From: Evansella sp. LMS18
GTDB taxonomy: Bacteria; Bacillota; Bacilli; Bacillales; Salisediminibacteriaceae
Assembly: GCF_024362785.1 (NCBI RefSeq)
Contig: NZ_CP093301.1
Coordinates: 372,001 to 436,000, forward strand
Reading direction: 5' to 3'
DNA: 64,000 nt
Shown here: piece by piece, positions 38,215 through 61,729 of the stretch
Numbering within the stretch: the first letter of the stretch is position 1
Layout: each line of letters begins with the position of its first letter
The notes under the pieces: model-generated
What the model was told of the DNA's origin: nothing
Database searches by the model: none
What the model saw: the letters and a program-made list of their open reading frames with translations, nothing else
Translations under genes and position numbers: made by a program

Positions 38215-38763
38215 ATGCTGCAAGTAAAAATATCCTATTCAGGTGAACAGATGCTGTACGGAATTCTCTCCGCCCTGGGGTTTAAATATGATAATTCCCG
38301 TTATTCATTAAAACTTTCCCCAAAGGCAGGCGGTCCGCTGGTTTTGACTAATCATCCTGCAGACAAAGAAATTAATCTTACTTTTCCTGAGGAAGTTACA
38401 ATGGAAGACTGTATCGAGATAAACAGGATAATAGAAGCCATAGCCGGTGAGATCGATGGTAAAGTTGACGACAGTGAGGCTCACCTTGGTTACGATAAAG
38501 ACGGCAACAAAAAGTTTATTTACCACGGCTTTAACAGCTGGGCAGAATTTATTGATGATGCACGGCATAAGACACTTGAAGGCCAGAAGGTTGCAGTAAA
38601 ACACGGTGATGAGATTATGGGCGAAGGAATTCTGCTTACTCTTGACAGAGCCAGAGAAGGAGACAAAGTGAAAGTTATCAGCTGTACGCTTGTTACCACT
38701 TCCGGAGAACAGTCTTTTTACGGCGATGATCTGCAGATCCTTCCGGTAACAACATGGCAATAG
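38215..38763 (+). CDS. Hypothetical protein, 182 aa
   Basis: ATG at 38215 follows AGAGGAGA. An acidic soluble protein, with alternating strands and helices, containing GYDKDGNKKFIYHGFNSWAEF in its middle. No signal peptide, membrane segment or motif I can name. An extended -10 (TGT-TATAAT, 38121-38129) lies upstream and a terminator follows, so it is a single-gene unit. It stands between ywiC and the second fnr gene, but has no Fnr box in the activating position. Confidence 0.6.
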   Translation: MLQVKISYSGEQMLYGILSALGFKYDNSRYSLKLSPKAGGPLVLTNHPADKEINLTFPEEVTMEDCIEINRIIEAIAGEIDGKVDDSEAHLGYDKDGNKKFIYHGFNSWAEFIDDARHKTLEGQKVAVKHGDEIMGEGILLTLDRAREGDKVKVISCTLVTTSGEQSFYGDDLQILPVTTWQ

Positions 38764-38874: not shown

Positions 38875-39585
38875 TTAAATGGTGCAAATCTCCACTGGAC
38901 AGTCACCGCAGTGAAGATAGTCCTTTAAAAACTGGATATCATGCAGCTGAATATGTCCGTTCTTCATAGAAACAATGTTTGTTTTCTTCAGGTCATTAAT
39001 CATCCGGTTAACGCTTTCCCGTGTAGTTCCAATATAGTTAGCTATATCCTGATTAGTCAGCTGTACATTAATTAAAATTCCGTCATCGCTCTGAATTCCA
39101 TAAGAGTTACTAAAGCGGATCAGGGTAGAATAAAACGCTCCTGTTTTTCCGCATAAGATTAAATCTCTGAATTTCGCCTGAGTGGACTGGGTATGACGGG
39201 CAAACCATTTCATAAATGCTACTGCAATCTCTCCGTTTTCCCTGAACAAAACTTCAAGAGTATGCCGGTCAAATCTTACCAGAACAGCTTCTTCAATGAC
39301 TTCCGCACTTACACTGATTGCCATTTCATTAAACAGCCCGACTTCCCCTACGAGCTCATCCCTCTGCTTCAGGTGAACGGAAAATTCCCTGCCCTCTGCA
39401 GTCATTTTACTAAGTCGTACTTTACCAGATCTCACTAAATAAACGTGGTCAGGGTAGTCTCCTTCATAAAAAAGGAAAGTACCGCTTTTCACTTTTATTT
39501 CAAGCCCATGAATAAGGAGCAGTTTCTGGTTTTCTTCAGAAATTTCGTTAAAAAACCTTTTCATTTCCAATTGTTTTTTTTCCAT
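38875..39585 (-). CDS. Fnr-type oxygen-sensing regulator, copy 2
   Basis: 236 aa and clearly paralogous to the protein at 30978: same barrel (LLLIHGLEIKVKSGTFLFYEGD), same HTH (GTTRESVNRMINDL) and C-terminal HCGDCPVEICTI with CxxCx4C cluster ligands. It should bind a [4Fe-4S] cluster and respond to oxygen. No Fnr box is seen upstream, unlike copy 1, so one copy may be constitutive. The ATG at 39585 has a weak ribosome binding site; ATG seven codons later is an alternative. It stands divergent from nothing close and downstream of narK's terminator. Confidence 0.85.
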   Translation of the reverse strand: MEKKQLEMKRFFNEISEENQKLLLIHGLEIKVKSGTFLFYEGDYPDHVYLVRSGKVRLSKMTAEGREFSVHLKQRDELVGEVGLFNEMAISVSAEVIEEAVLVRFDRHTLEVLFRENGEIAVAFMKWFARHTQSTQAKFRDLILCGKTGAFYSTLIRFSNSYGIQSDDGILINVQLTNQDIANYIGTTRESVNRMINDLKKTNIVSMKNGHIQLHDIQFLKDYLHCGDCPVEICTI

Positions 39586-40063: not shown

Positions 40064-41359
40064 TCAGCATTTCACTTCCGCGTTCTTTCTGGAATAGAAA
40101 TACCAGTTTATCACCAGACTTACAGCATAATAAGCTATGAAAATATACAGGGCAAGATTCGCAGCTCCTGTAGTGTCGATGGACCATCCGAAAATACTCG
40201 GAATCAGGTAAGCACCAAATGCGCCGATTGCAGAAGTCCAGCCAATAACAGCCGCAGCCTCTTTAGGCTTTTTGAAAATAAACGGAATCATACGGAATGT
40301 TGAGCCATTAGCAATACCTGTTGCCATGAACACGACCATGAACATGATCAGGAAGCCTGTAAAATTGCCAGCGTTATAAAAGAAAATAACACCGAATGTC
40401 GCAGCAATCATCAGGATAATGTCCCAGAAAGTAACGAACGCTCCGCCAAGTTTGTCAGACATCCAGCCGCCGACCGGACGGATCAGGGCTCCGATAAGTG
40501 GACCAAGGAAAGCAAATGCCATAGCGTTTACTTCAGGGAACTCTGTACGGATTAACAACGGGAACGCTGCCGCATATCCGATGAATGAACCGAAACACAT
40601 TACATAAAGCCACGTCATAATCCATGTATGTTTCATTTTCAGAATAACCATCTGCTCTCTTACGGATGCTTTCGTTCCTGGAAGGTTATCCATTTTAAAC
40701 ATAGCCGCAATAACAGTCAGGATAATTGGTATTACCCAGATAAATGCAGCGTTTTGCATATAAACTGGTGTTCCATCCCCTAAATATTGAGGTGCTCCTG
40801 CGAATGCGCCAAAAAGGGCGAACGTAACAACGATCGGTGCCAGAAGCTGAACAGCACTCACACCGAGGTTTCCGATACCTGCGTTAAGGCCCAGTGCCGT
40901 CCCTTTCTCTTTCAGCGGGTAGAAAAAGCTGATGTTAGACATGCTTGAAGCAAAGTTTCCTCCACCTAACCCGCAAAGTGCAGCGAGAATAGCCATTGTC
41001 GTGAATGAAGTTTCCGGGTTCTGTACCGCAATACCAATACCAATTGACGGAATTAACAAGGAAGCAGTACTGATTACGGTCCAGTTCTTCCCTCCAAAAA
41101 TCGGAACGACAAAGGTGTATATTACACGCAGTGCAGCTCCCGTCAGACCAGGAAGAGCTGCCAGCAGGAAGAGCTCCCGCTCCGTAAAGGCAAATCCTAC
41201 ATCATTTAAGTTTACTGCTACTACAGACCAGATTTGCCAGACGGCAAAGGCCAGAAACAGAGCTGGAATCGATACCCACAGATTCCTTCTCGCATGGCCT
41301 TTCCCTTCTGTTTCCCAGAAATGTTCATCTTCAGGATTCCATTTTTTTATAGCTCCCAT
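40064..41359 (-). CDS. narK: NarK-type nitrate/nitrite transporter
   Basis: An MFS carrier of 431 aa, 12 helices. Nitrate-porter signatures are visible: CGLGGGNFASSMSNISFF in TM5 and ATGIANGSTFRMIPFIF in TM11, plus the anion-binding Arg in GLTGAALRVIY (TM2) and in STFRMIP. It imports nitrate or exchanges nitrate for nitrite. It is the last gene of the operon starting at 46058. Its presence is the main evidence that the neighbouring molybdoenzyme acts on nitrate. Confidence 0.92.
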   Translation of the reverse strand: MGAIKKWNPEDEHFWETEGKGHARRNLWVSIPALFLAFAVWQIWSVVAVNLNDVGFAFTERELFLLAALPGLTGAALRVIYTFVVPIFGGKNWTVISTASLLIPSIGIGIAVQNPETSFTTMAILAALCGLGGGNFASSMSNISFFYPLKEKGTALGLNAGIGNLGVSAVQLLAPIVVTFALFGAFAGAPQYLGDGTPVYMQNAAFIWVIPIILTVIAAMFKMDNLPGTKASVREQMVILKMKHTWIMTWLYVMCFGSFIGYAAAFPLLIRTEFPEVNAMAFAFLGPLIGALIRPVGGWMSDKLGGAFVTFWDIILMIAATFGVIFFYNAGNFTGFLIMFMVVFMATGIANGSTFRMIPFIFKKPKEAAAVIGWTSAIGAFGAYLIPSIFGWSIDTTGAANLALYIFIAYYAVSLVINWYFYSRKNAEVKC

Positions 41360-41401
41360 TTTTTTCCCTCCATTAACTCAAAAGTTTATTGATTTCCTGA
41401 G

Positions 41402-41653
41402 TTAAACTGCTTGATCTGTCTCCCCAGACTGACCAGATGCATCAGGCTTTTTTTCAGTGCCTGTTTTATATTCGAGCTTTCTCCATTGAAGCAAAGTAAA
41501 GAATGCAATGAATGCTGAAACAACAGCGACCCCTGAATACACTAATGTGATTTCGTATTCTCTCCCCAGCCAGGCTTCCACAGTCCACTGCAGCATTACC
41601 ACGTTTATGGCGATGGTTACAAATATTATCCCCCAGCATGTTTTCTTACCCAT
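41402..41653 (-). CDS. Small two-TM operon membrane protein, 83 aa
   Basis: Starts MGKKTCWGIIFVTIAINVVML. Two hydrophobic segments (about 7-25 and 37-58) and a hydrophilic, acidic C-terminal tail. ATG at 41653 overlaps the end of the Rieske gene by 8 bp and follows GGGGAGG, so it is translationally linked. No haem or cluster ligands are evident. It may anchor the Rieske protein or be a small oxidoreductase subunit. I know no family for it. Confidence 0.7.
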   Translation of the reverse strand: MGKKTCWGIIFVTIAINVVMLQWTVEAWLGREYEITLVYSGVAVVSAFIAFFTLLQWRKLEYKTGTEKKPDASGQSGETDQAV

Positions 41654-42185
41654 GGCGGTACTGCCTCCCCGTGGCATATACCGTTCCGTTAATTACTTCA
41701 ACTTCAATCAGCGGAAGTTCCCTTTGCGGGGGACCGGCAATCGGGTGGCCGCTTTTCAGGTCAAAGTATCCTTTATGGCACGGACAGAGCAGAGTCTCAC
41801 TCTCTTTTTCATAGAAAACCGGACACATAAGATGAGTGCAGGCTGAATTATAAGCGACGAGCTCTCCGTCATTTGTATGAACAAGAATAGATGGATCGTT
41901 CTCTGTAGGATAGTTGAATGTTACCGATTCTCCACGTGGCAGCTGGTCCAGCTGAACAATCTCTACATGCTCGGTGTCATCCTCGGCCAGCCCTACCATC
42001 GCTCTTAAGCTGAATGGGACAGTAGCCAGCCCGAGAGCCATGGAGGCTCCCGCTGCTGTTTTAAGAAATGCACGACGGTTTAATGTCATATCATCCTTCT
42101 GCTCGATGTTTCCTGTGAGATTTACCATATCACTTTTTGATTTCTTTCCGTGTCTTCCTCTTTCTTTCGGGCAATCATTTGACAT
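41646..42185 (-). CDS. Tat-exported Rieske [2Fe-2S] protein
   Basis: 179 aa. Residues 1-33 are hydrophilic; then TLNRRAFLK and a hydrophobic stretch make a twin-arginine signal/anchor. The Rieske domain has CTHLMC and CPCHKG, with His and Cys ligands plus the extra Cys pair of high-potential Rieske proteins. It should sit on the outer face of the membrane. ATG at 42185 follows AAGGGGTGG; the earlier frame start (42269) would overlap the ferredoxin gene by 50 bp. It probably passes electrons from the quinol side to an unseen acceptor or to the complex. Confidence 0.87.
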   Translation of the reverse strand: MSNDCPKERGRHGKKSKSDMVNLTGNIEQKDDMTLNRRAFLKTAAGASMALGLATVPFSLRAMVGLAEDDTEHVEIVQLDQLPRGESVTFNYPTENDPSILVHTNDGELVAYNSACTHLMCPVFYEKESETLLCPCHKGYFDLKSGHPIAGPPQRELPLIEVEVINGTVYATGRQYRHG

Positions 42186-42219
42186 GTTTGCCACCCCTTT
42201 CCGAATTTTAGCCGGTACT

Positions 42220-42762
42220 TCAGTCTGAATAGACCCCGAAAAACTCCGGTACGTACTGCCACTTATCATTTTCAGAAGGCTTTTTGCCTTCGATTAAGTT
42301 CATCTGTGTTCTTTTTCTGCGTAATTCCATCATTTCCTCATGGTCGATAAAGCGAATTGCATCACTTGGGCATACAGACGCACACATTGGAGCAATATCA
42401 TGCTTCGTTCGGTCATAACACATGTCACATTTGTACATCTTGTTCTCTTCAAAATCGAACTTCGGAATTCCGAACGGACAGCCAAATGTACAGTTGCGGC
42501 AGCCGATACATTTTTCTTCCATGGCGGAAAGTACGACGCCTTCTTCTGTAATCTGGATTGCATTCGCAGGGCAGACACGGGCACATGCCGGATCTTTACA
42601 CTGCATACACATCATGGGAAATGTCTGTCTGCTTTCAAAGAAGTCGATATATTCAACGTAGTTACGTTCCTTTGCATCATGACCGCCACATTCTCTGCAG
42701 GCAGCCTGGCAGGATCTACACCCGATACAGCGTTCAAATTCTAAATACATTACTTTTTTCAT
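42220..42762 (-). CDS. Four-cluster ferredoxin-type subunit (DmsB/NrfC-like)
   Basis: 180 aa with four Cys groups: CIGCRSCQAAC (12-22), CMQCKDPACARVCP, CIGCRNCTFGCPFG and CDMC...CASVCP. This is the electron-transfer subunit of many molybdopterin oxidoreductases. It has no Tat motif, so it belongs on the cytoplasmic side with the catalytic subunit, whose gene ends 25 bp upstream. Ribosome binding site GGAGGAAAC precedes ATG 42762. Confidence 0.92.
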   Translation of the reverse strand: MKKVMYLEFERCIGCRSCQAACRECGGHDAKERNYVEYIDFFESRQTFPMMCMQCKDPACARVCPANAIQITEEGVVLSAMEEKCIGCRNCTFGCPFGIPKFDFEENKMYKCDMCYDRTKHDIAPMCASVCPSDAIRFIDHEEMMELRRKRTQMNLIEGKKPSENDKWQYVPEFFGVYSD

Positions 42763-42786
42763 GAATGTTTCCTCCTCCAGCTTCTG

Positions 42787-44913
42787 TTAGTTCACCTTTT
42801 TGAGATTGACGGCACATACTTTAAATTCTGGCATTCTTGATGTTGGATCGAGAGCTGGGTTAGTGAGCTGGTTTACGGAAAGCTCTTTGCCCCAGTGATA
42901 CGGAATAAATACATGGTCCGCTCTGATTGCTTTTGTGAGTCTTGCTTTCACTGTCATGGATCCTCTTCTCGTTGTAAGAAGTACGTTGTCTCCATTTTGG
43001 ATGTTATATCTGGATGAAAGCTCAGGATGCATTTCTACATAAGGCTCCGGGCATTGTTCCATGAGGAATTTCACCCTTCTGGTTTGTGTACCTGACAGGT
43101 AGTGGAATACTACCCTGCCTGTAGTCAGCGTGTGCGGATACTCAAAGTCAGGTATTTCAGCAGCTTCCTGCCAGTCTACCGCTGCAAGGTTTGCTTTTCC
43201 GTCTGGTGTTCCAAATTCATCTATAAACATTGTCGGCGTTCCTGGGTGGTCCTCCGAAGGGCAAGGCCAGAATACACCGTCTTCTTTATCAATTCTGTCA
43301 TAAGTGATTCCGTAATAATCTGCTTTTCCACCTTTGGAAGCGAGACGGAACTCATCAAATATTTCCGGAACATTCTCATATGGGAAAAACTCCCCTTTAC
43401 CCATCCGCTCTGCAATCAATTTCATAATCTCCCAGTCTGTTTTCGATTCTCCAATTGGATCCTTTACTTTACGTATCCGAATGACACGTCCTTCTAAATT
43501 CGTTGTCGTACCTTCATCCTCGGCCCACGTTGTTGCCGGTAAAACCACATCAGCAAATTCCGCTGTCTCAGACATGAAGAAATCACTTACAACGAGGAAA
43601 TCTAATTTTCTGAAGCTGTCCCAGACATATTGTGTATTAGGTGCAGAAACCGCTGGATTACTGCACATCACATGCATGGCGCGAATATTTCCTTCTTGAA
43701 TTTCATCAAACATTTCATAAGCTGAAACTCCGGCTTTTGGCATTTCTTCAGGTTTGATACCCCACACACCAGCCACGTATTTAACATGTTCAGGGTCCGC
43801 AATTTTTCTGTAGCCAGGTAAAGCATCTGCTTTTTGCCCATGCTCACGCCCACCTTGGCCGTTACCTTGCCCTGTTACAGTTGCAACACCTGAAGCAAAT
43901 TTCCCAATCTGCCCCCTTAATAGAGCCATGGAAGTATAAACGCTGACGTTGTCTACTCCTTTTGATTGTTGTTCAATACCACGGCAGAACATCACCACTG
44001 ACCTAGGAGACTGACCGTAAATCCTGGCTGCTTTTTCAAGCTTTTCCACAGATACTCCAGTTATTTGGGAAGTATATTCCGGTGTGAATTTCTTAACTAG
44101 TTCCTTCATTTCCTCATAATTGTTACAGCGTTCATTAACATAAGCCTCATCGACATACCCGTCACGGACTATGATGTGTAACATTCCGTTTGCTAAAGCA
44201 GAGTCTGTACCTGATTTAATATCTAAATGTACGTCCGCAATTCGTGCAATTTGAGTTTCCCTTGGGTCAACTACGATCATTTTGGCCCCTTTATCTCTGG
44301 CTTTCCACAACCATTGAATAGATGTAGGGTGGCATTCCGCCGCATTCCAGCCGGAAATGAAGAAGCAATCTGTATGTTCGAGCTCAGTCCATGGTAATGT
44401 TGATCCACGATCTGTTCCCAGGGTCTTCATGAACCCACCTGCTGCAGATGACATACAAAATCTTCCGTTATAATCAACAAATCTTGTTCCTAAAGCAACT
44501 CGGGCATATTTACCGACGAGGTAACATTTCTCATTTGTCATCGATACACCTCCATATACTGAGAGTGCATCCTTTCCGTGGTCATTCTGAAGCCTCTTGA
44601 AATTCTTTTCGATGAGATCGAGTGCTTCTTCCCATGTGCTTTCAACAAACTTCCCGTTTTTCTTAATTAATGGTGTTTTAATTCTCTCTTCATGGTCTAC
44701 TGTCTGGTAAGCAGTTACACCTTTAGGACACATTTTCCCAAGCGTTACAGGCCAGTCATATCTCGGCTCTACGCCAACCACTTTCCCTGACTTTTCATTT
44801 ACTCTTATATGCATGCCGCACTGCATACCACAGTAACAGCAGTGAGTGGTGATCAGTTTTTCACCTTTATTCTGAATGTTCTTAACTCCTGGTTTAACGA
44901 TAAATTCTGTCAT
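42787..44913 (-). CDS. Molybdopterin oxidoreductase, NasC/NapA-like catalytic subunit
   Basis: 708 aa. The N-terminal [4Fe-4S] motif is CCYCGMQCGMH...GKMCPKG (about 26-66). The Mo ligand region NGRFCMSSAAGG (about 150) has Cys, as in assimilatory and periplasmic nitrate reductases, not the Asp of NarG. The C-terminal MopB region ends LTNPALDPTSRMPEFK, also NasC-like. No Tat signal is present, so it should be cytoplasmic. With NarK, MoCo genes and Fnr boxes nearby, nitrate reduction is the best guess; formate or other oxyanions remain possible. It overlaps the upstream gene by 4 bp (ATGA). Confidence 0.87.
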   Translation of the reverse strand: MTEFIVKPGVKNIQNKGEKLITTHCCYCGMQCGMHIRVNEKSGKVVGVEPRYDWPVTLGKMCPKGVTAYQTVDHEERIKTPLIKKNGKFVESTWEEALDLIEKNFKRLQNDHGKDALSVYGGVSMTNEKCYLVGKYARVALGTRFVDYNGRFCMSSAAGGFMKTLGTDRGSTLPWTELEHTDCFFISGWNAAECHPTSIQWLWKARDKGAKMIVVDPRETQIARIADVHLDIKSGTDSALANGMLHIIVRDGYVDEAYVNERCNNYEEMKELVKKFTPEYTSQITGVSVEKLEKAARIYGQSPRSVVMFCRGIEQQSKGVDNVSVYTSMALLRGQIGKFASGVATVTGQGNGQGGREHGQKADALPGYRKIADPEHVKYVAGVWGIKPEEMPKAGVSAYEMFDEIQEGNIRAMHVMCSNPAVSAPNTQYVWDSFRKLDFLVVSDFFMSETAEFADVVLPATTWAEDEGTTTNLEGRVIRIRKVKDPIGESKTDWEIMKLIAERMGKGEFFPYENVPEIFDEFRLASKGGKADYYGITYDRIDKEDGVFWPCPSEDHPGTPTMFIDEFGTPDGKANLAAVDWQEAAEIPDFEYPHTLTTGRVVFHYLSGTQTRRVKFLMEQCPEPYVEMHPELSSRYNIQNGDNVLLTTRRGSMTVKARLTKAIRADHVFIPYHWGKELSVNQLTNPALDPTSRMPEFKVCAVNLKKVN

Positions 44914-46058
44914 GATTTAACTTCCTCCTTTACTGCCTGGTTATAAAATTCTTCCGCTCGTTCCCGGCCAAAGCCCGGCACATGAATTCCATTGTTTGTT
45001 TGTACAGGTCCGCTGACTTTTCCAAATTTGGATTTCATATTCAGGTGATCCATAACTCTGATCATCCTTCGGCAAGCTGTACAATAGTCCGAAGGCTTGT
45101 TGCCGTTATCCATTTCCAGATCAAATGCCTGGTTGCCAAGGATTTGCTGAACATCTGCGATTTGATCATCATTTGAGTAAAGCTCGCCGCAGCCGGCACA
45201 CTCTTTCGTGTCTACCTCAACAACTTCCTGATAGTTCATCGGGACTGCAGCTGCCATTGGACGAATCGGCAGGTGGAACAGTTTCCCGAATGGGAAGTAT
45301 ACAAGGAATACTACTACCGTAATCTGGTGGATAAGCGCCAGTTCAGGGTGCATCCAGCCGCTTAGCAGTTTATAGGAAACTGTCAGTGCGAGACCTGTTA
45401 CTGTCATCGCGAGGAGCAGATATAATGGGAACAAGTCAAACTCTGCCCGCTGAGTAACCTTCAAATCGTTATTTCCGATTCTTCTTACAAGTGCCATGAT
45501 TACCCCTACAAGAAGCATCGCAGCTGTTATATTCAATCCTTCAAATATCATGGAAGCGAGGATTCCGTCCGGATGCATGGAGATTGTTGGAATTCCGAAC
45601 ACTACCATCTGGTATGTTTCTGCGTTGATTAACTTAAAGTGCATCCAGCCGAATGTCAGTCCGAATGTGATGGCCAGGGATCCGATACACCCCCAGGCAA
45701 TTAGCCAGTGCTGTATACCTCTGTACCATCCTCTTTTGAAAATGAATTTCTGAAGAATGATATTATCAATTAATGTTTTAGCTATTGCTTTGAAATTTCT
45801 TTTCTGGCGCTTTTTTGTTTTCATGTTCTTTATGGACCGTTTAACTACTTCGTAGGTGGCCGGCCTCATAAGCCATGATGTCAGCCTGACTGTTATTCCG
45901 ATAAAGAAGATAAAGGACGAAACCATATATCCAAATAACATCCAGTCCATATGTGAAAACTGGCCTGTGCCAATCCACATCAGCATAAACAACACAACTA
46001 CTACTATGAAAGAATACATACTTGCCTTTGAATAAAAGGACCTCTCTAACCTTTCCAC
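44910..46058 (-). CDS. Membrane cytochrome b-like protein with Cys-rich C-terminal domain
   Basis: 382 aa. About six helices with candidate haem His in YRGIQHWLIAWG, MHPDG/WMHPELALIHQ and FGKLFHLP resemble NarI/DsrM/TmcC quinol-oxidising subunits. After about residue 280 a soluble domain carries CAGCGE and YCTACRRM, cluster-binding motifs of HdrC/CCG-like proteins. It would oxidise menaquinol and pass electrons to the ferredoxin subunit. GTG start behind AGGAGG. First gene of the six-gene operon. Confidence 0.8.
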   Translation of the reverse strand: MERLERSFYSKASMYSFIVVVVLFMLMWIGTGQFSHMDWMLFGYMVSSFIFFIGITVRLTSWLMRPATYEVVKRSIKNMKTKKRQKRNFKAIAKTLIDNIILQKFIFKRGWYRGIQHWLIAWGCIGSLAITFGLTFGWMHFKLINAETYQMVVFGIPTISMHPDGILASMIFEGLNITAAMLLVGVIMALVRRIGNNDLKVTQRAEFDLFPLYLLLAMTVTGLALTVSYKLLSGWMHPELALIHQITVVVFLVYFPFGKLFHLPIRPMAAAVPMNYQEVVEVDTKECAGCGELYSNDDQIADVQQILGNQAFDLEMDNGNKPSDYCTACRRMIRVMDHLNMKSKFGKVSGPVQTNNGIHVPGFGRERAEEFYNQAVKEEVKS

Positions 46059-46110: not shown

Positions 46111-46176
46111 ATTTTAAAAATTTGAGTATCCGGTAACTGTGTAAACTCTCACACCAAATCTGTGAAAAAAGTCACT
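46111..46176 (-). promoter_or_regulatory. Tandem Fnr-type boxes and promoter of the respiratory operon
   Basis: TGTGT-AAACTC-TCACA (46138-46153) lies 21 bases upstream of TAAAAT (46116-46111, minus strand), the class II spacing. A second box, TGTGA-AAAAAG-TCACT (46161-46176), is centred 23 bp further upstream. Confidence 0.75.
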
Positions 46177-46897: not shown

Positions 46898-47188
46898 TTA
46901 ATTATTATGTTTGTATACAATCTCTTCTCTGTCTTCATTAAATTCCACTAAAAAGTTTTTTCCGTCGAAATACCATATATCCTTATTTTCAATAAAGAAT
47001 TGTATATTATCTTTAGTCGTTTCCACTGCCGGGTCTTCCGGATCTTTTTTCGTTACTCCTAAAGAAAATCCTGTCTGAAAATCACCGTGTCCCCCATACC
47101 TTACAAAAAACTGCACTGCTTCACCATCTGTAAGCTCCAGTTCTTTTTTAAACCACTCTGCTGCTTTATCTGTTACTTCTATCTCCAC
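46898..47188 (-). CDS. HesB/YneR family protein
   Basis: 96 aa with the HesB-like fold: starts MEIEVTDKAAEWFKKEL and contains VQFFVRYGGHGDFQTGFSLGV. The Cys residues used by IscA-type carriers are absent, as in the Bacillus YneR/HesB branch. A role in Fe-S metabolism is suggested by family name only. It lies between the respiratory operon and the LpdD-like gene. No Fnr box is found upstream. Start ATG is behind GGAGGGA. Confidence 0.82.
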   Translation of the reverse strand: MEIEVTDKAAEWFKKELELTDGEAVQFFVRYGGHGDFQTGFSLGVTKKDPEDPAVETTKDNIQFFIENKDIWYFDGKNFLVEFNEDREEIVYKHNN

Positions 47189-47937: not shown

Positions 47938-48162
47938 ATGTCAAAAATCTTTACCCTTGATGTAAGAGAAGATATACAGCAAAAAAAAGAACCTTTTCAG
48001 CGGATCATGAAAACAGTGGAACAGGTTGAAGATGGCGGCCAGCTGATCCTCCACACCCCGTTTGTCCCTGAACCTTTGTACAATATTATGAAAGGAAAAG
48101 GGTTCCGTTATGAGGTAGAGCAAATAGACAACGAACACTTCGTAACAGTTTTCCACAAATGA
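47938..48162 (+). CDS. DUF2249 protein, 74 aa
   Basis: A single DUF2249 domain: FTLDVREDIQQKKEPFQRIM, then LILHTPFVPEPLYNIMKGKG and the final strand HFVTVFHK. This TusA-like small fold is common beside denitrification and NO-response genes in many bacteria; its role is not established. ATG follows GAGGTGAT. A close relative with two domains is encoded at 49910. Upstream stands a box in activating position. Confidence 0.82.
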   Translation: MSKIFTLDVREDIQQKKEPFQRIMKTVEQVEDGGQLILHTPFVPEPLYNIMKGKGFRYEVEQIDNEHFVTVFHK

Positions 48163-48185
48163 TTTCCTGAACTGATAATACTCAC

Positions 48186-48228
48186 TATGAAAAAAGTCAC
48201 AGTTACAAATCCTTCTTCCTGCTACAAT
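48186..48228 (+). promoter_or_regulatory. Crp/Fnr-type box and promoter of the third regulator
   Basis: TATGA-AAAAAG-TCACA (48186-48201), then 21 bases, then TACAAT (48223-48228). The predicted transcript starts near 48235, which excludes the upstream ATG at 48227 as start. Confidence 0.7.
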
Positions 48229-48271
48229 GCTCATATATGAAAAAGGACCAGCGAAGGAGGCAGGTTTATTT

Positions 48272-48955
48272 ATGAATGAAATTCTTAATAAGATTACTAT
48301 ATTTACACATTTGCCGGAAAAAATAAAAGATCAGTTAAGTGAAATTGTTATCTCTAAAACTGTAACGAAGGGGGAAGTTCTTTTTCACGAAGCGTCTCCT
48401 GCTGAAGCTGTTTATTTTGTTAATGAAGGTAAAGTTAAAATTTCGAAAAGCACTCCGGATGGAAAAGAAATTCTCCTGAGTATAAGACAACCTGGAGAGA
48501 TGTTTGCGGAAGTAGCATTATTTAAAGAAGCAAACTGTACCTATCCGGCTACTGCATCTGTAATTGAGAACGGTGCCGTTTCTCTCATTAGAAATGAGGA
48601 ACTTGAGCTCTTCCTGTATCAGCACCCTGAGCTTGGGATGGCGATATTCCGTGTTATGGCCGAAAGACTGCAAATCTCACAGGCTACTCTGAGAGATGTT
48701 GCATTATATGGAAAATTGGGCGCCCTGGCAGCAACACTTGTAAGACTGACGGAAGATTATGGAGAGGCTGCTGATGATGGCGTAATCATTAAGTTAAAAT
48801 TAACCCACGAAGATCTTGGAAGTTTTTTCGGTGCTACAAGGGAAAGTGTCACAAGAATGATGAATCAGCTTAAACAGCAGGGAATTCTGAATAAACATCA
48901 GGGAAATATTATAATAAACGATCTGGACGGATTGAAAACTTACATTACTAATTAA
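48272..48955 (+). CDS. Crp/Fnr-family regulator without cluster cysteines
   Basis: 227 aa: barrel domain (VLFHEASPAEAVYFVNEGKVKIS), dimer helix and HTH GATRESVTRMMNQL. Unlike the two Fnr copies it lacks the C-terminal CxxCx4C, so it does not carry that [4Fe-4S] cluster. Family relatives of this kind sense NO via haem (DNR/NnrR) or other signals; which applies is unknown. ATG at 48272 follows AAGGAGG with a long spacer. The promoter carries its own type of box, so it is probably part of a regulatory cascade over the flanking DUF2249 genes. Confidence 0.85.
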   Translation: MNEILNKITIFTHLPEKIKDQLSEIVISKTVTKGEVLFHEASPAEAVYFVNEGKVKISKSTPDGKEILLSIRQPGEMFAEVALFKEANCTYPATASVIENGAVSLIRNEELELFLYQHPELGMAIFRVMAERLQISQATLRDVALYGKLGALAATLVRLTEDYGEAADDGVIIKLKLTHEDLGSFFGATRESVTRMMNQLKQQGILNKHQGNIIINDLDGLKTYITN

Positions 48956-48969
48956 ACAGTTGTAAACTT

Positions 48970-48994
48970 AAGGCAGTGCGATGCGCACTGCCTT
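48970..48994 (+). terminator. Hairpin after the third regulator
   Basis: AAGGCAGTGCG / CGCACTGCCTT stem with a 3-base loop. No T run follows, so it may be a weak terminator between two cotranscribed genes. Confidence 0.55.
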
Positions 48995-49025
48995 ATGTAT
49001 TACTCCCGGAAAAGGAGGTATGGAA

Positions 49026-49439
49026 GTGAGCCAGATTTTCATAATATTATCAGGCTATACAGCTGTATTTCTCGTACTATGTAATTTTCTCATGTTTATA
49101 TTATTTCTATGGATCCGCAAGTCAAAAAACAGAGCGGTTCAGAAAAAAGTAGCCAGGACGGCGAGATTCTGGATGAAAACGCATCGTCCTTTCGCAGCAG
49201 CAGCTGCATTTATGGTAATTATCCACTTTATCAGTGTATCTCAGTATTTAAACTTCAGAGAAAACATCCAGGCTGGCACCGGTATGTCGGCAGCAGCAAT
49301 TTTTATTGTTCTGCTTGTATCCGGCTTGTTTCGTAACCGTAAAGCTACAGGCAGGAGAAGAAAATTTCACCGGTTTATGGCCTTTCTGTTTCTCATCATG
49401 ATGTTCCTCCATTTATTCAGCTCCTGGTTTACTACATAA
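49026..49439 (+). CDS. Four-TM cytochrome b-like membrane protein, 137 aa
   Basis: Four hydrophobic helices. His pairs occur in THRPFAAAAAFMVIIHF and FHRFMAFLFLIMMFLHLF, spaced about one helix length, as in di-haem cytochrome b membrane proteins. GTG at 49026 is chosen because GGAGG is 7 bases upstream; the ATG at 49020 touches the Shine-Dalgarno. It lies 70 bp after the third Crp/Fnr gene and ends before a terminator. An electron-transfer role is inferred from the His pattern only. Confidence 0.7.
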   Translation: MSQIFIILSGYTAVFLVLCNFLMFILFLWIRKSKNRAVQKKVARTARFWMKTHRPFAAAAAFMVIIHFISVSQYLNFRENIQAGTGMSAAAIFIVLLVSGLFRNRKATGRRRKFHRFMAFLFLIMMFLHLFSSWFTT

Positions 49440-49527
49440 CTATCTCTCAGAAAAGGCCTCAGCTGCTCAGGATGATCATTACAGGGTAAAAAGCTGCGAA
49501 TCCCCTTTAGCAACTTAAACAGAAAAC

Positions 49528-49553
49528 AAGCTGCTGAATAATTTCAGCAGCTT
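49528..49553 (+). terminator. Terminator-like hairpin
   Basis: A perfect 11-bp stem AAGCTGCTGAA / TTCAGCAGCTT with a 4-base loop, after the gene ending at 49439. Confidence 0.65.
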
Positions 49554-49580
49554 AATCTGTTCATATGATTGGGGGTCATT

Positions 49581-49673
49581 ATGAACAACACATGTTGCAC
49601 ATTCTTTAGGTTTGTAACGTGGATTAATACGCTAGTCGATTGGGGGCCATCAGCTATATTAATCTGTTTATAA
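49581..49673 (+). CDS. Possible 30-aa small protein
   Basis: ATG at 49581 after TTGGGGGTCATT opens 30 codons ending in a hydrophobic run (VDWGPSAILICL). The sequence GATTGGGGG(T/C)CAT occurs both before it and inside it, 71 bp apart. A further 15-codon frame with a strong AGGAGG site follows at 49690-49737. These may be leader peptides of the downstream operon or chance frames. Confidence 0.3.
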   Translation: MNNTCCTFFRFVTWINTLVDWGPSAILICL

Positions 49674-49757
49674 ATCAGGAGGTAAAACTATGGACCGCGG
49701 AGAAAGTATTTTTCCCCGGCCACATTTATTATTATAAGCTCTCCTTCCAAAGTTTTA

Positions 49758-49869
49758 TGTGAATTACATCACAATAGGAATCGATTCTTGGTTGAATTGT
49801 GAAAACTTTGTGGCAGGGGAAGGTGCTGTGACTTGAATCACTTCTTCTTTTTCAAATAATTACTATAGT
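49758..49869 (+). promoter_or_regulatory. Two Fnr boxes and promoter of the DUF2249/NnrS-like operon
   Basis: TGTGA-ATTACA-TCACA (49758-49773) is perfect. TGTGA-CTTGAA-TCACT (49827-49842) lies 21 bases before TATAGT (49864-49869), a class II promoter. The boxes are centred 69 bp apart. Confidence 0.78.
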
Positions 49870-49909
49870 TATGGTAATAACCCTGTAAGGTAATAAGGAG
49901 GACAGGAAG

Positions 49910-50470
49910 ATGACTATAGTAAATTTGGATGTTCGTAAGGATCTGGAGAACAAAAAGGATCCATTTAAAAAAATTATGACCACTGTGAAAGCTCTTAAGA
50001 AGGATGAAAAGCTGGTTCTTCATTCTACTATTAAACCTGTGCCGCTTCTCACTATTATGAAAGCAAAGGGCTACACGAATAAAGTTGAAAAAATAGCAGC
50101 AGATCATTACAGAACCACATTCGAAAAGAACAAAGAAGGGCTGATAAAAAGTATTTTTAAAAGAAAGAAAAAGGAAGAGACACCTGCACCGGTTCAAGGG
50201 GCACCTGCTTTTCCAACGAACGAAAATCTTTTGAAAGACGAAGAAAAAGGGGCATTCTTTCTCGATAACCGAGGGCTGGAACCACCACAGCCCATGGTCA
50301 GAACATTAAAAAGGCTTGAATCGCTGAAAGTTTCGGAAACGCTGACCATTCATAATGACCGGGTGCCGGTTTATTTACTGGAAGAACTGAAAAACCTCGG
50401 TGTGAATTACACTATAGAAGAACAGCCGGACGGTTCGGCAAAAGTTCATTTAACACGTACAGAAGAGTAG
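49910..50470 (+). CDS. Tandem DUF2249 protein, 186 aa
   Basis: Two DUF2249-like domains: residues 1-70 (TIVNLDVRKDLENKKDPFKK, close to the 74-aa protein at 47938) and about 115-186 (LDNRGLEPPQPMVRTLKRLE...). A basic, Pro-rich linker (FKRKKKEETPAPVQ) joins them. The second repeats the pattern D-R-x-L-E-P-P typical of family members. ATG follows AGGAGG. Twelve bases separate it from the next gene, so they form one operon under strong Fnr boxes. Confidence 0.82.
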   Translation: MTIVNLDVRKDLENKKDPFKKIMTTVKALKKDEKLVLHSTIKPVPLLTIMKAKGYTNKVEKIAADHYRTTFEKNKEGLIKSIFKRKKKEETPAPVQGAPAFPTNENLLKDEEKGAFFLDNRGLEPPQPMVRTLKRLESLKVSETLTIHNDRVPVYLLEELKNLGVNYTIEEQPDGSAKVHLTRTEE

Positions 50471-50482
50471 GAGGGGAAAGAC

Positions 50483-51757
50483 ATGCATACAGCATTACAG
50501 CAAAGTACTTCACAAAAATCCGATCAATTTATCCTTCCCTTTTCTTTTATTATTTCAAGTTTGATCTTTCTTGTGATTTTCTCTGTTGGTCTCGCAAGCA
50601 GCCCGGGAGTGTTTTCTTTTGATTCGCTTCGTTCTCCTGCCGCCCTTGCGATGGCTCACCTTTTTATTCTCGGCTGGGCGACGATGCTGGCAATGGGAGC
50701 TGTCTACCAGTTAATTCAGGTAGTTTCCCAGAGACCTGTCCACAGCAGTAAGCTTGGATTTATCCACTTTGGCCTGTATATCTCAGGAGTGACGGGATTA
50801 TATATCTCCCTTCCTGACTTTATTATACCTGCACTAATTATTTTTGGACTTCTTACTGTCGCCGGAGTGGGGTGTTTCCTGTTCAATGTCCTGCTGACTC
50901 TTAAAGACTCGAAACTAGTAAACCCAGTCATTTCAGCCACTAAAAGTGCACTACTGTATTTAGGATTAACAGTTGCCACAGGACTGGTTATGGTATTGAA
51001 TTTCCGTTTTGGCTTCCTGGGAACATTTCATAACGGGATTTTTCTTCTCCATTTATGGGCTGGCCTGATCGGATGGTTTCTGTTCCTGATCGCTGGCTAC
51101 AGTTTTAAAATGCTCCCTATGTTTTTTCTGGCACACGGACATGACGAAAAATGGCAAAAATGGATTCTCATTGCTCTTCATGGAGCAATATGGGTCAGCG
51201 CTGCTGCCGGAGCTGCGGGAATGGCTTCCACTTTCCTCCCATTAAGCCTTGCTCTATTGTCGTTAGGCCTTGTAATGCTGCTCGTTCAGATAAGTGAAAT
51301 CAGAAAAAATAAATTTAAGAAGAATCCCGGAAGAGGCATTATCTTTTTTATAACTTTACTAAAAGGATTTACTGCACTTTCAGTAGTTTTATTCTTACTT
51401 TCAATAGTAAATGTTGAGTTTCTTCTGCAGTATTCTGTACTTGGTCCTATCCTGATGTTTTATATTTTCGGATTTGTCAGTTTATCTATTGCAGCCTACC
51501 TGTCAAAAATAATCCCATTTCTCTGGTGGACCTTCCGTTATGGCGGTCAGGTAGGACAGAAAGAAACTCCGTCACTCGCAATTATGGTTGATGAAAATGT
51601 CGCTGAAAGAAAATTGTGGTTACAGCTCGCCGCTTTAATCCTGTTTATTTGCAGCCTCTGGACCGGTCTTCAATTCTTAATCATCGGAACTGCTATTCTC
51701 TTTGCATTTACCATTGTCTTTTATATTTTTACTATTGGGAAGGCCTTCACTTATTAG
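50483..51757 (+). CDS. Haem-copper-oxidase-like/NnrS-like 12-TM protein
   Basis: 424 aa, about 12 helices. LAMAHLFILGWATMLAMG (about 51-68) and FHNGIFLLHLWAGLIGWFLF (about 176-195) carry conserved His in the style of cbb3-oxidase subunit I and NnrS. The set of ligands needed for a catalytic haem-Cu centre is not obvious, so it may be a haem protein for NO handling and not an oxidase. It follows the tandem DUF2249 gene by 12 bp and shares its Fnr-controlled promoter. NnrS relatives protect denitrifiers from NO stress. Confidence 0.65.
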   Translation: MHTALQQSTSQKSDQFILPFSFIISSLIFLVIFSVGLASSPGVFSFDSLRSPAALAMAHLFILGWATMLAMGAVYQLIQVVSQRPVHSSKLGFIHFGLYISGVTGLYISLPDFIIPALIIFGLLTVAGVGCFLFNVLLTLKDSKLVNPVISATKSALLYLGLTVATGLVMVLNFRFGFLGTFHNGIFLLHLWAGLIGWFLFLIAGYSFKMLPMFFLAHGHDEKWQKWILIALHGAIWVSAAAGAAGMASTFLPLSLALLSLGLVMLLVQISEIRKNKFKKNPGRGIIFFITLLKGFTALSVVLFLLSIVNVEFLLQYSVLGPILMFYIFGFVSLSIAAYLSKIIPFLWWTFRYGGQVGQKETPSLAIMVDENVAERKLWLQLAALILFICSLWTGLQFLIIGTAILFAFTIVFYIFTIGKAFTY

Positions 51758-52894: not shown

Positions 52895-53131
52895 TTATCC
52901 TCCGCTTACTGGTGGGATGAAGGCAACATTGTCGCCGGCTTTCGCTTTCACTTCGTCCTCGGCGTATTCTTCGTTAATTGCCGGCATCGCCGTATTTATA
53001 ACCGTTAACTGAGGAAACTTATTCAGGAGATAGATTTTTATATCAGAGATTTTCATTTCCTCCGCAGAAATTTCAACTTCCCGCTGTCCGGCTTTTTCTT
53101 CCAGTTCAGCAAATAACAAAACTTTTATCAT
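52895..53131 (-). CDS. moaD: Molybdopterin synthase small subunit MoaD
   Basis: A 78-aa ubiquitin-like protein ending in the required Gly-Gly (PPVSGG) that is thiocarboxylated and donates sulfur to precursor Z. It overlaps moaE by 4 bp (ATGA). Last gene of the moeA-mobB-moaE-moaD operon, which supplies the cofactor for the neighbouring molybdoenzyme. Confidence 0.95.
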   Translation of the reverse strand: MIKVLLFAELEEKAGQREVEISAEEMKISDIKIYLLNKFPQLTVINTAMPAINEEYAEDEVKAKAGDNVAFIPPVSGG

Positions 53132-53601
53132 TGTAAATCCTCCTTTTCAGGCTTTCCGGATGGGTATGGCTTCTTTTCAAGCTGATCGCCGATCCACTCT
53201 TCTCCGTCTTCCCAATGTTCTTTTTTCCAGATTGGCACGATTTCTTTAATTCTTTCGATTGCATATCTGCTGGCAGTAAAAGCATCCGCCCGATGTGGCG
53301 TGGAGACGGCGATAACTACAGCAATATCTGTAATACCCAGTTCACCGATCCTGTGGGTTATTGCTACTTTTGCTTCAGGGAAATCAATCTGGATTTCGTC
53401 CCCTATCTGTGCGAGTTTTTTCTCGGCCATCGGCACATAAGCATCATATTTTAAATAAAGTGTCTTCTTTCCTTTGGTCAGTTCCCTGACCGTCCCGATA
53501 AAAGTGTTAACAGCTCCGGCATTTCTGTCTGTTACTTTATCTACAACTTCCTGGATATTGATCACTTCTTCAGTGATTAAAAAGTTTTTCTGCTCAGCCA
53601 T
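53128..53601 (-). CDS. moaE: Molybdopterin synthase large subunit MoaE
   Basis: 157 aa. Typical segments are GAVNTFIGTVRELTKG, LKYDAYVPMAEKKL, HRIGELGITDIAVVIAVSTPHR and the active-site Lys region WKKEHWEDGEEW. With MoaD it converts precursor Z to molybdopterin. ATG at 53601 overlaps the mobB stop (TGATG); the TTG one codon upstream is less likely. Confidence 0.96.
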   Translation of the reverse strand: MAEQKNFLITEEVINIQEVVDKVTDRNAGAVNTFIGTVRELTKGKKTLYLKYDAYVPMAEKKLAQIGDEIQIDFPEAKVAITHRIGELGITDIAVVIAVSTPHRADAFTASRYAIERIKEIVPIWKKEHWEDGEEWIGDQLEKKPYPSGKPEKEDLQ

Positions 53602-54140
53602 CAAATATCACGCTCCTTGTTTACCCGGCTCGTTAGCCAGTCAAGATATTGATTTTCTTCTGTAATGCAAAAAACCGGGACATTCAGTTTTTTTTCAGCA
53701 GCCTCAAGCATGTCATCGTTCCAGCAAACCACCGCTTCCACGTTAATGGAGTTTTCTGCAAACCTCAGATCATCCATATTTCGCAACAACAGAAGTTTAG
53801 GGTATGTTTCCTTCTTGAATCCTTCAATAATAATGATATCAAGAGAAAACGGTTTATAAAAATTAATTAATTCCTCAAGGGATAAAGGCCTGTCCAGTTT
53901 CATCATGAACTGGAGCTCCTCGCCGCTTGCAACAATCGTTCCGGAAGAGCCTGCTTCCCGGTGGCCGGCTGAATCCTTGCCTGTATCGGCAGTTTTCAGT
54001 TTCCCGCCATGTCCGTGATGCTTAATAGTAGCAGATTGTATACCTGCTTCACTCAACCTTTTCAGCCACTTTTTAACTAAAGTTGTCTTGCCGCTGTTTG
54101 AATACCCTGCGATTTGAAAAATAAACGGTGTTTCTCTCAT
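53601..54140 (-). CDS. mobB: Molybdopterin-guanine dinucleotide biosynthesis protein MobB
   Basis: A P-loop GTPase of 179 aa. Walker A is GYSNSGKTTL (about 12-21), followed by TIKHHGHGGK and the strand IIIEGFKKETYPK. It assists MobA in attaching GMP to molybdopterin, consistent with the bis-MGD enzyme encoded upstream. It overlaps moeA by 4 bp (ATGA) and moaE by 1 base. Confidence 0.94.
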   Translation of the reverse strand: MRETPFIFQIAGYSNSGKTTLVKKWLKRLSEAGIQSATIKHHGHGGKLKTADTGKDSAGHREAGSSGTIVASGEELQFMMKLDRPLSLEELINFYKPFSLDIIIIEGFKKETYPKLLLLRNMDDLRFAENSINVEAVVCWNDDMLEAAEKKLNVPVFCITEENQYLDWLTSRVNKERDI

Positions 54141-55432
54141 TCGTTTTCTTTCCTGGTTTTCAAAGGATCTTTCAGAGGAACCTCTGAACCTTCCCGGTTT
54201 AAAAGCAAAATATCTACTTCGTCACCCGCCTTATAGCCTCTGCTCCCTCCTGGGACGGCCACAAGTGCGTCCGTATGCGCAAGGGATGTTACTACTTGAG
54301 ATTTATCCATCCCGACTGGAGAAGCGGTAATTTTCCCATCTGCGAAATCTGTTTTACTGCGGATGAATCTTGTAAACGGGTTTGGCTTTGGGAAATCTTT
54401 CGTCAAACTTCCCTTAACTGTTTCTACATACGGAGTCCGTGAATAAAGATACTTTTTAATCCATGGTCTCGTATAAAGCTCAAAGCCTACGAAGCACGCA
54501 GATGGATTTCCTGACAGCCCGAAAAGGAGCTTCCCGTCTGCTTCCGCAACTGTTGTAACACTGCCTGGCCTCATGGCAATTTTATTGAACAGCACATTTG
54601 CTCCCAGCTTAGCGTATATCTCCGGGAGGAAATCAAAATCACCGACTGAGACGCCTCCGGTAGTAATAAGGGCGTCCACTTTTTCCAGAGCGTTGCTGAC
54701 TGCGTTGAAACTAAGGTCGAAATCATCGATCAGCTGGCCGAAGTAAACTGGCTCTCCGCCTGCCTGCCTGATTTGAGCCTGGATCATGTAAGCATTACTA
54801 TTTCTGATTTTCCCCGGCTCCAGAGGCTCGCCAACATCGAGAAGCTCTGTCCCCGTAGCATATATTCCAATTACCGGCTTTTTCACCACCGGCACTTCTT
54901 TATAGCCGAAGGTAGCTAAAACAGCTATTACACCGGCGTGTATCCTGCTTCCAGCTTCAAGCAGCACATCCCCTTTTTGTGTTTCTTCCCCTTCAAAGGA
55001 AACAAAGTCTCCTTCTTTAAAAGTTCGCTTTATTTCTATATATTGTCTGCCTTCCTCTTCAATTTCCTTCGTGAGCTCAAACATGACGATTGCATCACAG
55101 TCTTCAGGCATAATCGTTCCTGTCATCACTCTTACAGCCTGCCCTGGTTTCACCTCAAGGGAGGGGACTCCACCCGCGCCTACTGTTTCAATAACTTCCA
55201 GCCTGACTGGATGTTCTCCGCTTGCGTTTTTTGTATCTTCACTCCTCACGGCAAAACCATCGAGGGGAGATCTGTCAAATGGAGGTATATTATGGTCCGC
55301 TATTACAGCTTCTGCCAGATATCTTCCATCTGCGTTTTCAATATCGATATATTCCTTTTCCCCTTCCCGGGAAAACTCCATTACTTTTTTAACCGCTTCA
55401 CTAACCTGTATAGCCGTCCGCTCTTCAAACAT
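54137..55432 (-). CDS. moeA: Molybdopterin molybdenumtransferase MoeA
   Basis: 431 aa. Domains run in the usual order, with PPFDRSPLDGFAVRSED, VRVMTGTIMPEDCDAIV, the MoCF-like TTGGVSVGDFDFLPE and GLSGNPSACFVGFE. It inserts molybdate into adenylylated molybdopterin. ATG at 55432 is used. Earlier in-frame ATGs would precede or coincide with the predicted transcription start from the Fnr-box promoter. First gene of the operon. Confidence 0.95.
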   Translation of the reverse strand: MFEERTAIQVSEAVKKVMEFSREGEKEYIDIENADGRYLAEAVIADHNIPPFDRSPLDGFAVRSEDTKNASGEHPVRLEVIETVGAGGVPSLEVKPGQAVRVMTGTIMPEDCDAIVMFELTKEIEEEGRQYIEIKRTFKEGDFVSFEGEETQKGDVLLEAGSRIHAGVIAVLATFGYKEVPVVKKPVIGIYATGTELLDVGEPLEPGKIRNSNAYMIQAQIRQAGGEPVYFGQLIDDFDLSFNAVSNALEKVDALITTGGVSVGDFDFLPEIYAKLGANVLFNKIAMRPGSVTTVAEADGKLLFGLSGNPSACFVGFELYTRPWIKKYLYSRTPYVETVKGSLTKDFPKPNPFTRFIRSKTDFADGKITASPVGMDKSQVVTSLAHTDALVAVPGGSRGYKAGDEVDILLLNREGSEVPLKDPLKTRKENE

Positions 55433-55466
55433 ATTAACCGCACATCCTTCCTCTGACATCCTTGAT

Positions 55467-55510
55467 ATTTTAACAGACCTTGATAGATAAAGGTTGTATG
55501 TTTTATCACA
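55467..55510 (-). promoter_or_regulatory. Fnr-type box and promoter of moeA-moaD
   Basis: TGTAT-GTTTTA-TCACA (55495-55510, 9 of 10 conserved bases) lies 22 bases before TAAAAT (55472-55467) on the minus strand. Confidence 0.6.
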
Positions 55511-55545
55511 AATTCCTGAAATTTTCGTTCTCATATGTATTGTAA

Positions 55546-55582
55546 GAAAAAAACTGCGCCGACACAAAAATACCGGCACAGT
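55546..55582 (-). terminator. Terminator of ctaG-sco
   Basis: ACTGTGCCG / CGGCGCAGT hairpin (one G-U) followed by TTTTTTTC on the minus strand. It ends the sco transcript just before the moeA promoter. Confidence 0.82.
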
Positions 55583-61183: not shown

Positions 61184-61729
61184 TTATACGGCTGGTGAAT
61201 GGTGGAATTTCTGAAGGAGTGCGAGCTTTTCTTCGTCGTTGAGAAGCCCTTCCGCAAACGGAAAGAGTATCTCTTCTTCTTTGAGGAAATGGTCGGTTAA
61301 CGTGTGAAACACCCCTGCTGCTATATATGCCAGCTCCCTGACGTCTTCTGGTGTAAAGCCTGGCCCTTCAGAATATTTAGTGAAGAATTTATCCAGGCCC
61401 TCTTTTACTTTTATATGTTCATTTTCCATTACAGTTAAAGGGCTGGAGCCGTTTCCAACGTATTTTGTTACATAGTCAAAAAGGTACTCTTCCTTTTCCG
61501 CGCGCAGGAATAATTTTTTATGAAAGCTTTCTATTTGCATACAGAGCTGCTTGGCCAGTTCGTCCCGGTCCTCCCGCTGTGGGTTATATGCCAGCATTGC
61601 AGCTGTTTCGCGGAACTGGTCCATCTCCTTCGTTAAAGATGGATGTTCTTCGAGAAGCCACTGAATCGCTTCGCAATAATTATCCGGCTTAGAAAAACTG
61701 CTTGTAAGACACCCGTGGAAATTATACAT
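61184..61729 (-). CDS. Hemerythrin (HHE) domain protein
   Basis: 181 aa, a four-helix bundle with the expected di-iron ligands: His in LLEEHPSLTKEM, His in IESFHKKLFLRAEKEEYLF, ENEHIKVKEGL, and FHTLTDHFLKEEEILFP. Bacterial HHE proteins bind O2 or NO or protect Fe-S clusters (the RIC/YtfE type). The Cys-containing ScdA domain is not present. An Fnr-type box in class II position implies anaerobic or nitrosative induction. Confidence 0.85.
   Translation of the reverse strand: MYNFHGCLTSSFSKPDNYCEAIQWLLEEHPSLTKEMDQFRETAAMLAYNPQREDRDELAKQLCMQIESFHKKLFLRAEKEEYLFDYVTKYVGNGSSPLTVMENEHIKVKEGLDKFFTKYSEGPGFTPEDVRELAYIAAGVFHTLTDHFLKEEEILFPFAEGLLNDEEKLALLQKFHHSPAV

Follow-up and report, generated by a model that had tools for sequence, protein, structure and literature searches.

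Analysis of a 64,000-nucleotide stretch of the Evansella sp. LMS18 genome (the window; G000:C1:372001-436000, from a genome of 4.90 Mb in one contig) reveals an operon which, judging from its sequence, probably encodes a membrane-bound, quinol-linked, cytoplasm-facing dissimilatory nitrate reductase that is built on a NasC-type catalytic subunit and does the job of NarGHI. By profile and tree tests it appears to be an uncharacterised conserved complex, NarGHI-like in outline, that is not a member of NarGHI, of NapA or of the NasC equivalog. The original prediction, made without database searches, had described six tightly packed minus-strand genes, and all six are found in the open reading frame (ORF) list of the window between 40064 and 46058, closely spaced and on that strand:

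44910..46058, minus strand: NarI-like membrane cytochrome b, 382 residues, six predicted transmembrane (TM) segments, C-terminal CxxC-x35-CxxC-RR domain
42787..44913, minus strand: MopB catalytic subunit, 708 residues, Cys-ligated NasC-type, N-terminal [4Fe-4S] motif
42220..42762, minus strand: four-cluster ferredoxin, FdnH/DmsB-like, 180 residues
41646..42185, minus strand: Rieske [2Fe-2S] protein with a twin-arginine signal-anchor (NRRAFLK), disulfide-type CTHLMC/CPCH
41402..41653, minus strand: small two-TM protein, in the same slot as the DUF6755 protein of Deinococcus
40064..41359, minus strand: NarK family nitrate/nitrite porter, 431 residues, 12 hydrophobic segments
46138..46176, no strand: two CRP/FNR-type palindromes on the upstream side of the operon

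Two starts differ from those of the longest ORFs: the Rieske protein probably begins with the ATG at 42185 after GGAAAGGGG (longest-ORF start 42269), and the small TM protein probably with the ATG at 41653 after GGGGAGGC (longest-ORF start 41677), both being preferred because they fit ribosome sites better.

Conservation of the cassette and of its upstream boxes

The class-level set comprised 398 genomes of Bacilli searched for the cytochrome b, of which 41 matched and 39 were kept as carriers (G056, with a C-terminal remnant only at L068, and G081, a weak match, were dropped); flanks were read for 30 of the 39, window included. Scanning GTDB genomes added 77 named loci, from the best 80 of at least 576 relatives, and these together with two Deinococcus plasmids and the class set amount to 109 loci, 95 of them distinct after removal of identical cytochrome b ends. 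Genomes outside Bacillota were covered by the GTDB scan and a plasmid collection. The genes for the cytochrome b, the MopB subunit, the ferredoxin and the Rieske protein lie on the same strand and in the same order in 93 of the 95 distinct loci, the exceptions being L134, which is at a contig end, and L139, which is a broken copy; both copies in G086 were counted as present, though their MopB frames are interrupted. A recurrence on this scale, as read from the sequences, we regard as going beyond chance. The search for co-conservation that had been proposed for all six proteins bears out the four core genes, with homologs of the small TM protein recognised in 72 loci and NarK present within the fetched flank in 29 (at least 40% identity) to 41 (at least 100 bits). 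The window cytochrome b is 98% identical to its counterpart in Evansella clarkii DSM 8720. A wide spread across Bacillota was rejected, as two of 398 phylum-wide genomes have a clear match, both in the taxonomic order of the window organism, and the other 17 profile matches (E-values 1e-7 to 1e-3) are fragments only.

Plasmids of Deinococcus wulumuqiensis and D. psychrotolerans (L075, L076) carry genes for the cytochrome b, MopB, a 4Fe-4S protein, a Rieske protein, a DUF6755 protein and a transporter annotated either as 'nitrate/nitrite transporter' (TIGR00886 280 bits, below the cut-off of 312) or as 'MFS transporter' (MFS, major facilitator superfamily). In the same records the cassette cytochrome b is itself annotated 'MFS transporter', and such an annotation may hide the system from surveys.

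The Fnr boxes of the original prediction correspond to two CRP/FNR-type sites (46138-46153 and 46161-46176; TGTGAN6TCACA with one mismatch each) located 80-118 bp before the first gene. A site of this kind, with at most one mismatch and no more than 300 bp away from the start of the cytochrome b, occurs in 83 of the 95 distinct loci (66 perfect), compared with 218 of 4480 stretches of 300 bp drawn at random from the loci (with duplicates); the 83 are not independent cases, since close relatives share upstream DNA. The whole window holds 11 such sites, whereas 20 mononucleotide shuffles average 2.35 and reach 8 at most. If two mismatches are tolerated, the surplus becomes slight (37 sites vs. 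26.8, with 4 of 100 shuffles as high).

Catalytic subunit and its partners

The catalytic subunit of the window contains the motif NGRFCMSSA (Cys153) and a 4Fe-4S motif beginning at residue 25; no signal peptide was seen in it. The pattern NGRxCM[SV][SA]A recurs in 92 of the 95 loci, the three misses (L134, L139, L061) being shortened ORFs. Reference formate dehydrogenases (FDHs) have Cys/Sec-His, vs. Cys-Met in the cassette, in all five rows with a readable motif; the window genome's own FDH was not matched by the active-site pattern. The best NCBIfam model is NasC (NF047855), with 916 bits for the window protein and a cut-off of 1100: intact cassette proteins score 861-936, whereas the NasC proteins of the same genomes score 1142-1322. 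Neither the NarG model (TIGR01580, 90.6 bits, cut-off 1084) nor the NapA model (TIGR01706, 311.5 bits, cut-off 930.55) reaches its threshold, and AioA matches are weak (about 80 bits).

Two trees were built with 22 cassette proteins chosen from about 110 available. In the first (40 rows) these 22, Deinococcus included, form one group with support 99/98; when this tree is rooted on two very distant MopB proteins, three FDH rows group with NapA and NasA and apart from the cassette, and the nitrate side (NasC/NasA/NapA) is not one group. For the second tree three selenocysteine FdhF-type enzymes were added and the distant MopB rows dropped. Here a 100/99 branch separates the nitrate reductases from six FDHs, and the cassette group (22 rows, 96/96) stands beside, not inside, the B. 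subtilis-type NasC clade (5 rows, 99/96), cassette, NasC clade and Mycobacterium Nas being united at 100/100. Salmonella FdnG, NarZ and the window genome's YdeP-like protein were dropped from both trees; PhsA, the window genome's 674-residue MopB protein and Streptomyces Nas were also dropped from the second. The Cys-ligated NasC/NapA type proposed from the letters alone agrees with the Cys-Met motif and with the place on the nitrate side of the second tree. Clustering with FDHs, which the original prediction had named as the outcome that would speak against it, was found in neither tree and was rejected, also in view of the Cys-Met motif: in the MopB tree proposed as a check the cassette clade adjoins NasC, with the FDHs across the 100/99 branch.

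The cytochrome b gives weak matches to the QmoC and DsrM profiles and, unlike cytochromes b of the QmoC/DsrM/EtfD type, falls far short of the 300-bit cut-offs of those families. Its C-terminal four-cysteine (Cys4) pattern, CxxC-x(35)-CxxC-RR in the window, was matched in all 95 distinct loci. A CCG domain was rejected at this position, because the pattern does not resemble that of CCG domains as generally known; the C-terminal Cys domain originally described is present, and the CCG assignment is withdrawn. According to the positive-inside rule both termini would be inside, together with a basic loop and the Cys4 tail. An in-frame TAG within the cytochrome b of five genomes was rejected as an anomaly, being an ordinary stop codon where the match ran past the protein end. 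In Exiguobacterium (L045-L050, L057) the Cys4 domain is duplicated in a separate ORF of about 95-126 residues directly after the cytochrome b.

Sixteen of the 17 cysteines of the ferredoxin group into four cluster-type sets, in keeping with the four clusters first proposed. Its best models are FdnH-type and DmsB, both under their cut-offs, and the NarH model gives 53 bits vs. 524; no signal for twin-arginine translocation (Tat) was seen in it. The Rieske protein is the sole core subunit showing a twin-arginine signal (89 of 93 Rieske ORFs), and the Tat dependence claimed for it fits the NRRAFLK signal-anchor and Rieske motifs of the window protein. It is of the disulfide type, and AioB is among its nearest solved relatives. 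The small two-TM protein of the window matched no family at the standard profile threshold; DUF6755 (Pfam) matches both Deinococcus proteins tested and none of the four Bacilli proteins tried, their likeness to the Deinococcus protein being judged by eye, and a literature search on DUF6755 found no paper. Mesobacillus-type cassettes (L043, L122) have an Mrp/ApbC-like P-loop gene (named by eye) between the ferredoxin and Rieske genes.

Co-occurrence, mechanism and competing readings

The original prediction saw the operon as a replacement for narGHJI, and named narGHJI elsewhere in the genome, combined with no nitrate phenotype on deletion, as an observation that would count against it. In the window genome, profile search found no NarG, no NapA and no further NasC above the thresholds; its best TIGR01580 match (E 7e-13) stays below the cut-off, and none of its eight PF00384 matches is a frame of NarG length. 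Over the class set, NarG exceeds its cut-off in 110 of 398 genomes, namely in 2 of 39 carriers (G013, G138) vs. 108 of 359 others (Fisher p 5e-4, uncorrected for kinship). Among the carriers tested for both NarG and NapA, one has both, 11 of 51 have one or both and 40 of 51 have neither over cut-off, NapA being present in 7 of 51. The porter claimed for the operon is recognised by TIGR00886 (323 bits, cut-off 311.7). A NarK-family match (E 4e-63 or better) exists in 39 of 39 carriers and, compared by eye, lies about 12 kb or less from the cassette in 34; it is unlinked in G344, G255, G096 and G138, its position in G040 not being listed. NarK-family matches are common in non-carriers too, the curated cut-off being exceeded in 9 of 39 carriers and 11 of 359 others. 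Within genus g41 all seven carriers have a NarK-family match (E 7e-86 or better), as against 2e-8 for the best among 11 non-carriers. NrfA is over cut-off in 3 of the 39 carriers and NirK in none of them. Mesobacillus selenatarsenatis SF-1, which reportedly respires nitrate, has the cassette (L122) and neither NarG nor NapA over cut-off.

Starting from the observed gene content and order, conservation, clade, active-site motif, boxes and co-occurrence, a mechanism may be proposed in which the operon is switched on at low oxygen by a CRP/FNR regulator and its products form a complex. Nitrate would be imported by NarK, and menaquinol would be oxidised at the membrane by the NarI-like cytochrome b and/or the Rieske protein, the latter Tat-exported, membrane-anchored and placed at the outer face of the cytochrome b. 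Electrons would then cross the membrane by heme b, of one or more putative groups, and pass to the cytoplasmic Cys4 domain, the four-cluster ferredoxin, the [4Fe-4S] cluster of the NasC-type subunit and its molybdenum (Mo) centre, where nitrate would be reduced to nitrite in the cytoplasm. Should quinol be oxidised on the outer side while the Mo site faces inwards, the arrangement described for NarGHI (PMC3475470), energy would be conserved. In a rather unlikely variant the enzyme has two electron inlets, an outer Rieske protein (served by cytochrome c or by one-electron menaquinol splitting) also feeding the cytoplasmic NasC-type enzyme via the NarI-like cytochrome b. Nitrate respiration would then draw on both high-potential and quinone pools, an arrangement that we do not know from any nitrate reductase.

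The place of the catalytic subunit next to assimilatory NasC suggests another role, that of a membrane-tethered assimilatory enzyme for which quinol replaces NAD(P)H or ferredoxin as the payer; the window genome would suit it, with nirB over cut-off, with nirD and siroheme genes recognised by eye, and without a further NasC above the threshold. We consider this improbable, as 26 of the 39 carriers are without NirB over cut-off (13 have it, and none of the seven in g41), a separate NasC exceeds the cut-off in 4 of 39 (G013 and G086 have one below it, at 1053 bits and, partial, at 746), the boxes are of CRP/FNR type (nitrogen-control sites were not looked for), and the distribution is inverse to that of NarG. 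The Rieske signal, alone among core subunits, and the disulfide type of the protein, with AioB among its nearest solved relatives, would also agree with an enzyme located wholly outside the membrane, its catalytic subunit and ferredoxin being exported as passengers on that signal, for which arsenite oxidase and archaeal outward nitrate reductases offer parallels. NarK in or near the operon indicates a cytoplasmic site, however, the basic loop and Cys4 tail of the cytochrome b are predicted inside, and NasC-type enzymes are tabulated as cytoplasmic (PMC10100899), so that such an export is very improbable.

A different substrate (chlorate, selenate or another oxyanion) or FDH activity seems hardly credible given the NarK linkage, the Cys-Met motif against Cys/Sec-His in the five readable FDHs and the 100/99 branch, although selenate and arsenate reducers are among the carriers (Anaerobacillus, M. 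selenatarsenatis) and the Fdh-alpha model TIGR01591, second best for the catalytic subunit, is passed by the window protein (696.6, cut-off 666.25). By the tests applied the subunit would thus be an FDH on that score and not on motif or clade. Several observations weigh against the reading that we favour in agreement with the original prediction, a dissimilatory nitrate reductase on a NasC-type subunit, for which the dissimilatory role and the replacement of narGHJI draw their support from distribution only. The TIGR01591 score is one of them; the same cut-off is passed by a Mesobacillus cassette protein and is not reached by a Deinococcus member (589) or by three NasC (601-616), the window's own FDH scoring 834. 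Among the 60 of 68 phmmer matches to solved structures that were listed, the closest are FDHs (557 bits), NapA gives 388 and none is named NasC. Of the named carriers, 50 (from 77 loci) were searched for NarG and 5 have it, namely Bacillus mediterraneensis, Cytobacillus oceanisediminis, Anaerobacillus arseniciselenatis, Mesobacillus maritimus and Fredinandcohnia quinoae. Finally, a compiled table (PMC11944866) gives Anaerobacillus alkalilacustris, a species with both NapA and the cassette (L089), as nitrate-negative; A. arseniciselenatis, with NarG, NapA and the cassette, is nitrate-positive in that table.

Described systems and neighbouring genes

The cassette resembles NarGHI in several respects: its Mo subunit lacks an export signal, it has a four-cluster Fe-S subunit, a putative NarI-like anchor and NarK, and its boxes are of FNR type. 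It differs in its catalytic subunit, which at 708 residues belongs to the Cys-ligated NasC type and is not NarG, in the added Rieske protein, small TM protein and Cys4 domain, and in having no narJ among its six genes (no NarJ-model search was made). It shares a neighbouring clade, equal length and the NGR[FY]CM motif with B. subtilis-type NasC, but has membrane partners and lower NF047855 scores; assimilatory NasC has soluble Nas partners. Haloarchaeal nar operons place nitrate reductase genes beside Rieske and cytochrome b genes, but their enzymes are NarG-type and outward facing with a bc-type cytochrome b, unlike the cassette. AioAB likewise pairs a Mo enzyme with a Tat-type Rieske protein, and AioA lies near NasC/NasA in published trees (PMC7331816); unlike in AioAB, the Cys ligand of the Mo subunit is kept in the cassette, where a ferredoxin and a cytochrome b are the partners of that subunit.

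An Exiguobacterium cluster (PMC7374977) comprises nasC, FdnH, a 2Fe-2S protein first named AioB, two MFS genes including narK, and fnr; it was termed a seeming assimilatory nitrate reductase, its role being left open and possibly anoxic, and in the available text only the response of nasC to arsenic was tested, with none seen. Judged by that gene list it is the same cluster, and its 'uncharacterized MFS' protein is probably the cassette cytochrome b. The B. bataviensis nasC linked to HCP and another Rieske gene, as described by Heylen and Keltjens (2012; PMC3475470) in their account of Bacillus Nar and Nap systems, differs from the cassette. The complex is not described in the available parts of PMC11388526, PMC12016495, PMC7604516 and PMC10949509, and our literature searches, with most subscription journals outside their coverage, found no description of it. 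A 2020 survey (PMC7331816), in the part available, regards NasA/NasC as exclusively assimilatory and no member of their clade as associated with canonical four-cluster or anchor subunits; the latter statement is directly contradicted by the operon. If dissimilatory, the operon would also contradict the assimilation-only view, repeated in 2023 (PMC10100899). An enzyme type known so far for nitrate assimilation appears wired into the membrane in many Bacilli and some Deinococcus, and conversion of an assimilatory enzyme into a respiratory one becomes directly testable with the operon. With narG and napA as the usual markers by which genomes and metagenomes are judged for nitrate respiration, the 40 of 51 carriers with neither over cut-off would be scored as non-respirers of nitrate, or their gene counted as assimilatory nasC.

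Two genes adjoin the cassette on its downstream side:

38875..39585, minus strand: CRP/FNR-family regulator with a Cys-containing C-terminal tail, directly downstream of narK
38215..38763, plus strand: uncharacterised protein, 182 residues

The former, of which CRP-type homologs occur in 46 of the 77 named loci, is possibly the associated regulator of the operon, and the latter, kept beside the cassette in 65 of 95 loci, is a possible accessory factor. On the upstream side, an Fe-S_biosyn (Pfam) gene is located at 46898-47188, and the molybdenum cofactor operon reported previously is present at 53128-55579, about 7 kb from the cassette and not 10 kb; we take its genes, by eye and not by profile, to be moaE-mobB-moeA. 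At L068 (G056:C6, 7704-8030) the C-terminal remnant of the cytochrome b precedes two narG copies, at distances of about 9 and 16 kb, and may be the trace of an exchange in which narGHJI took the place of the cassette. Elsewhere in the window genome, a NirK-like copper nitrite reductase lipoprotein (G000:C1:1405109-1406218; L231 9110-10219, plus strand) scores 199 bits against a cut-off of 296, and the organism may make nitric oxide from nitrite, as far as this similarity goes. The regions 47938-51757 and 61184-61729 of the window contain genes for a DUF2249 protein, a small ORF resembling it (both judged by eye), a hemerythrin, a further CRP/FNR regulator and an NnrS-like protein (named by eye; weak COX1 match below cut-off). 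Several of these genes lie close to CRP/FNR boxes, and together they may constitute a nitrosative-stress set.
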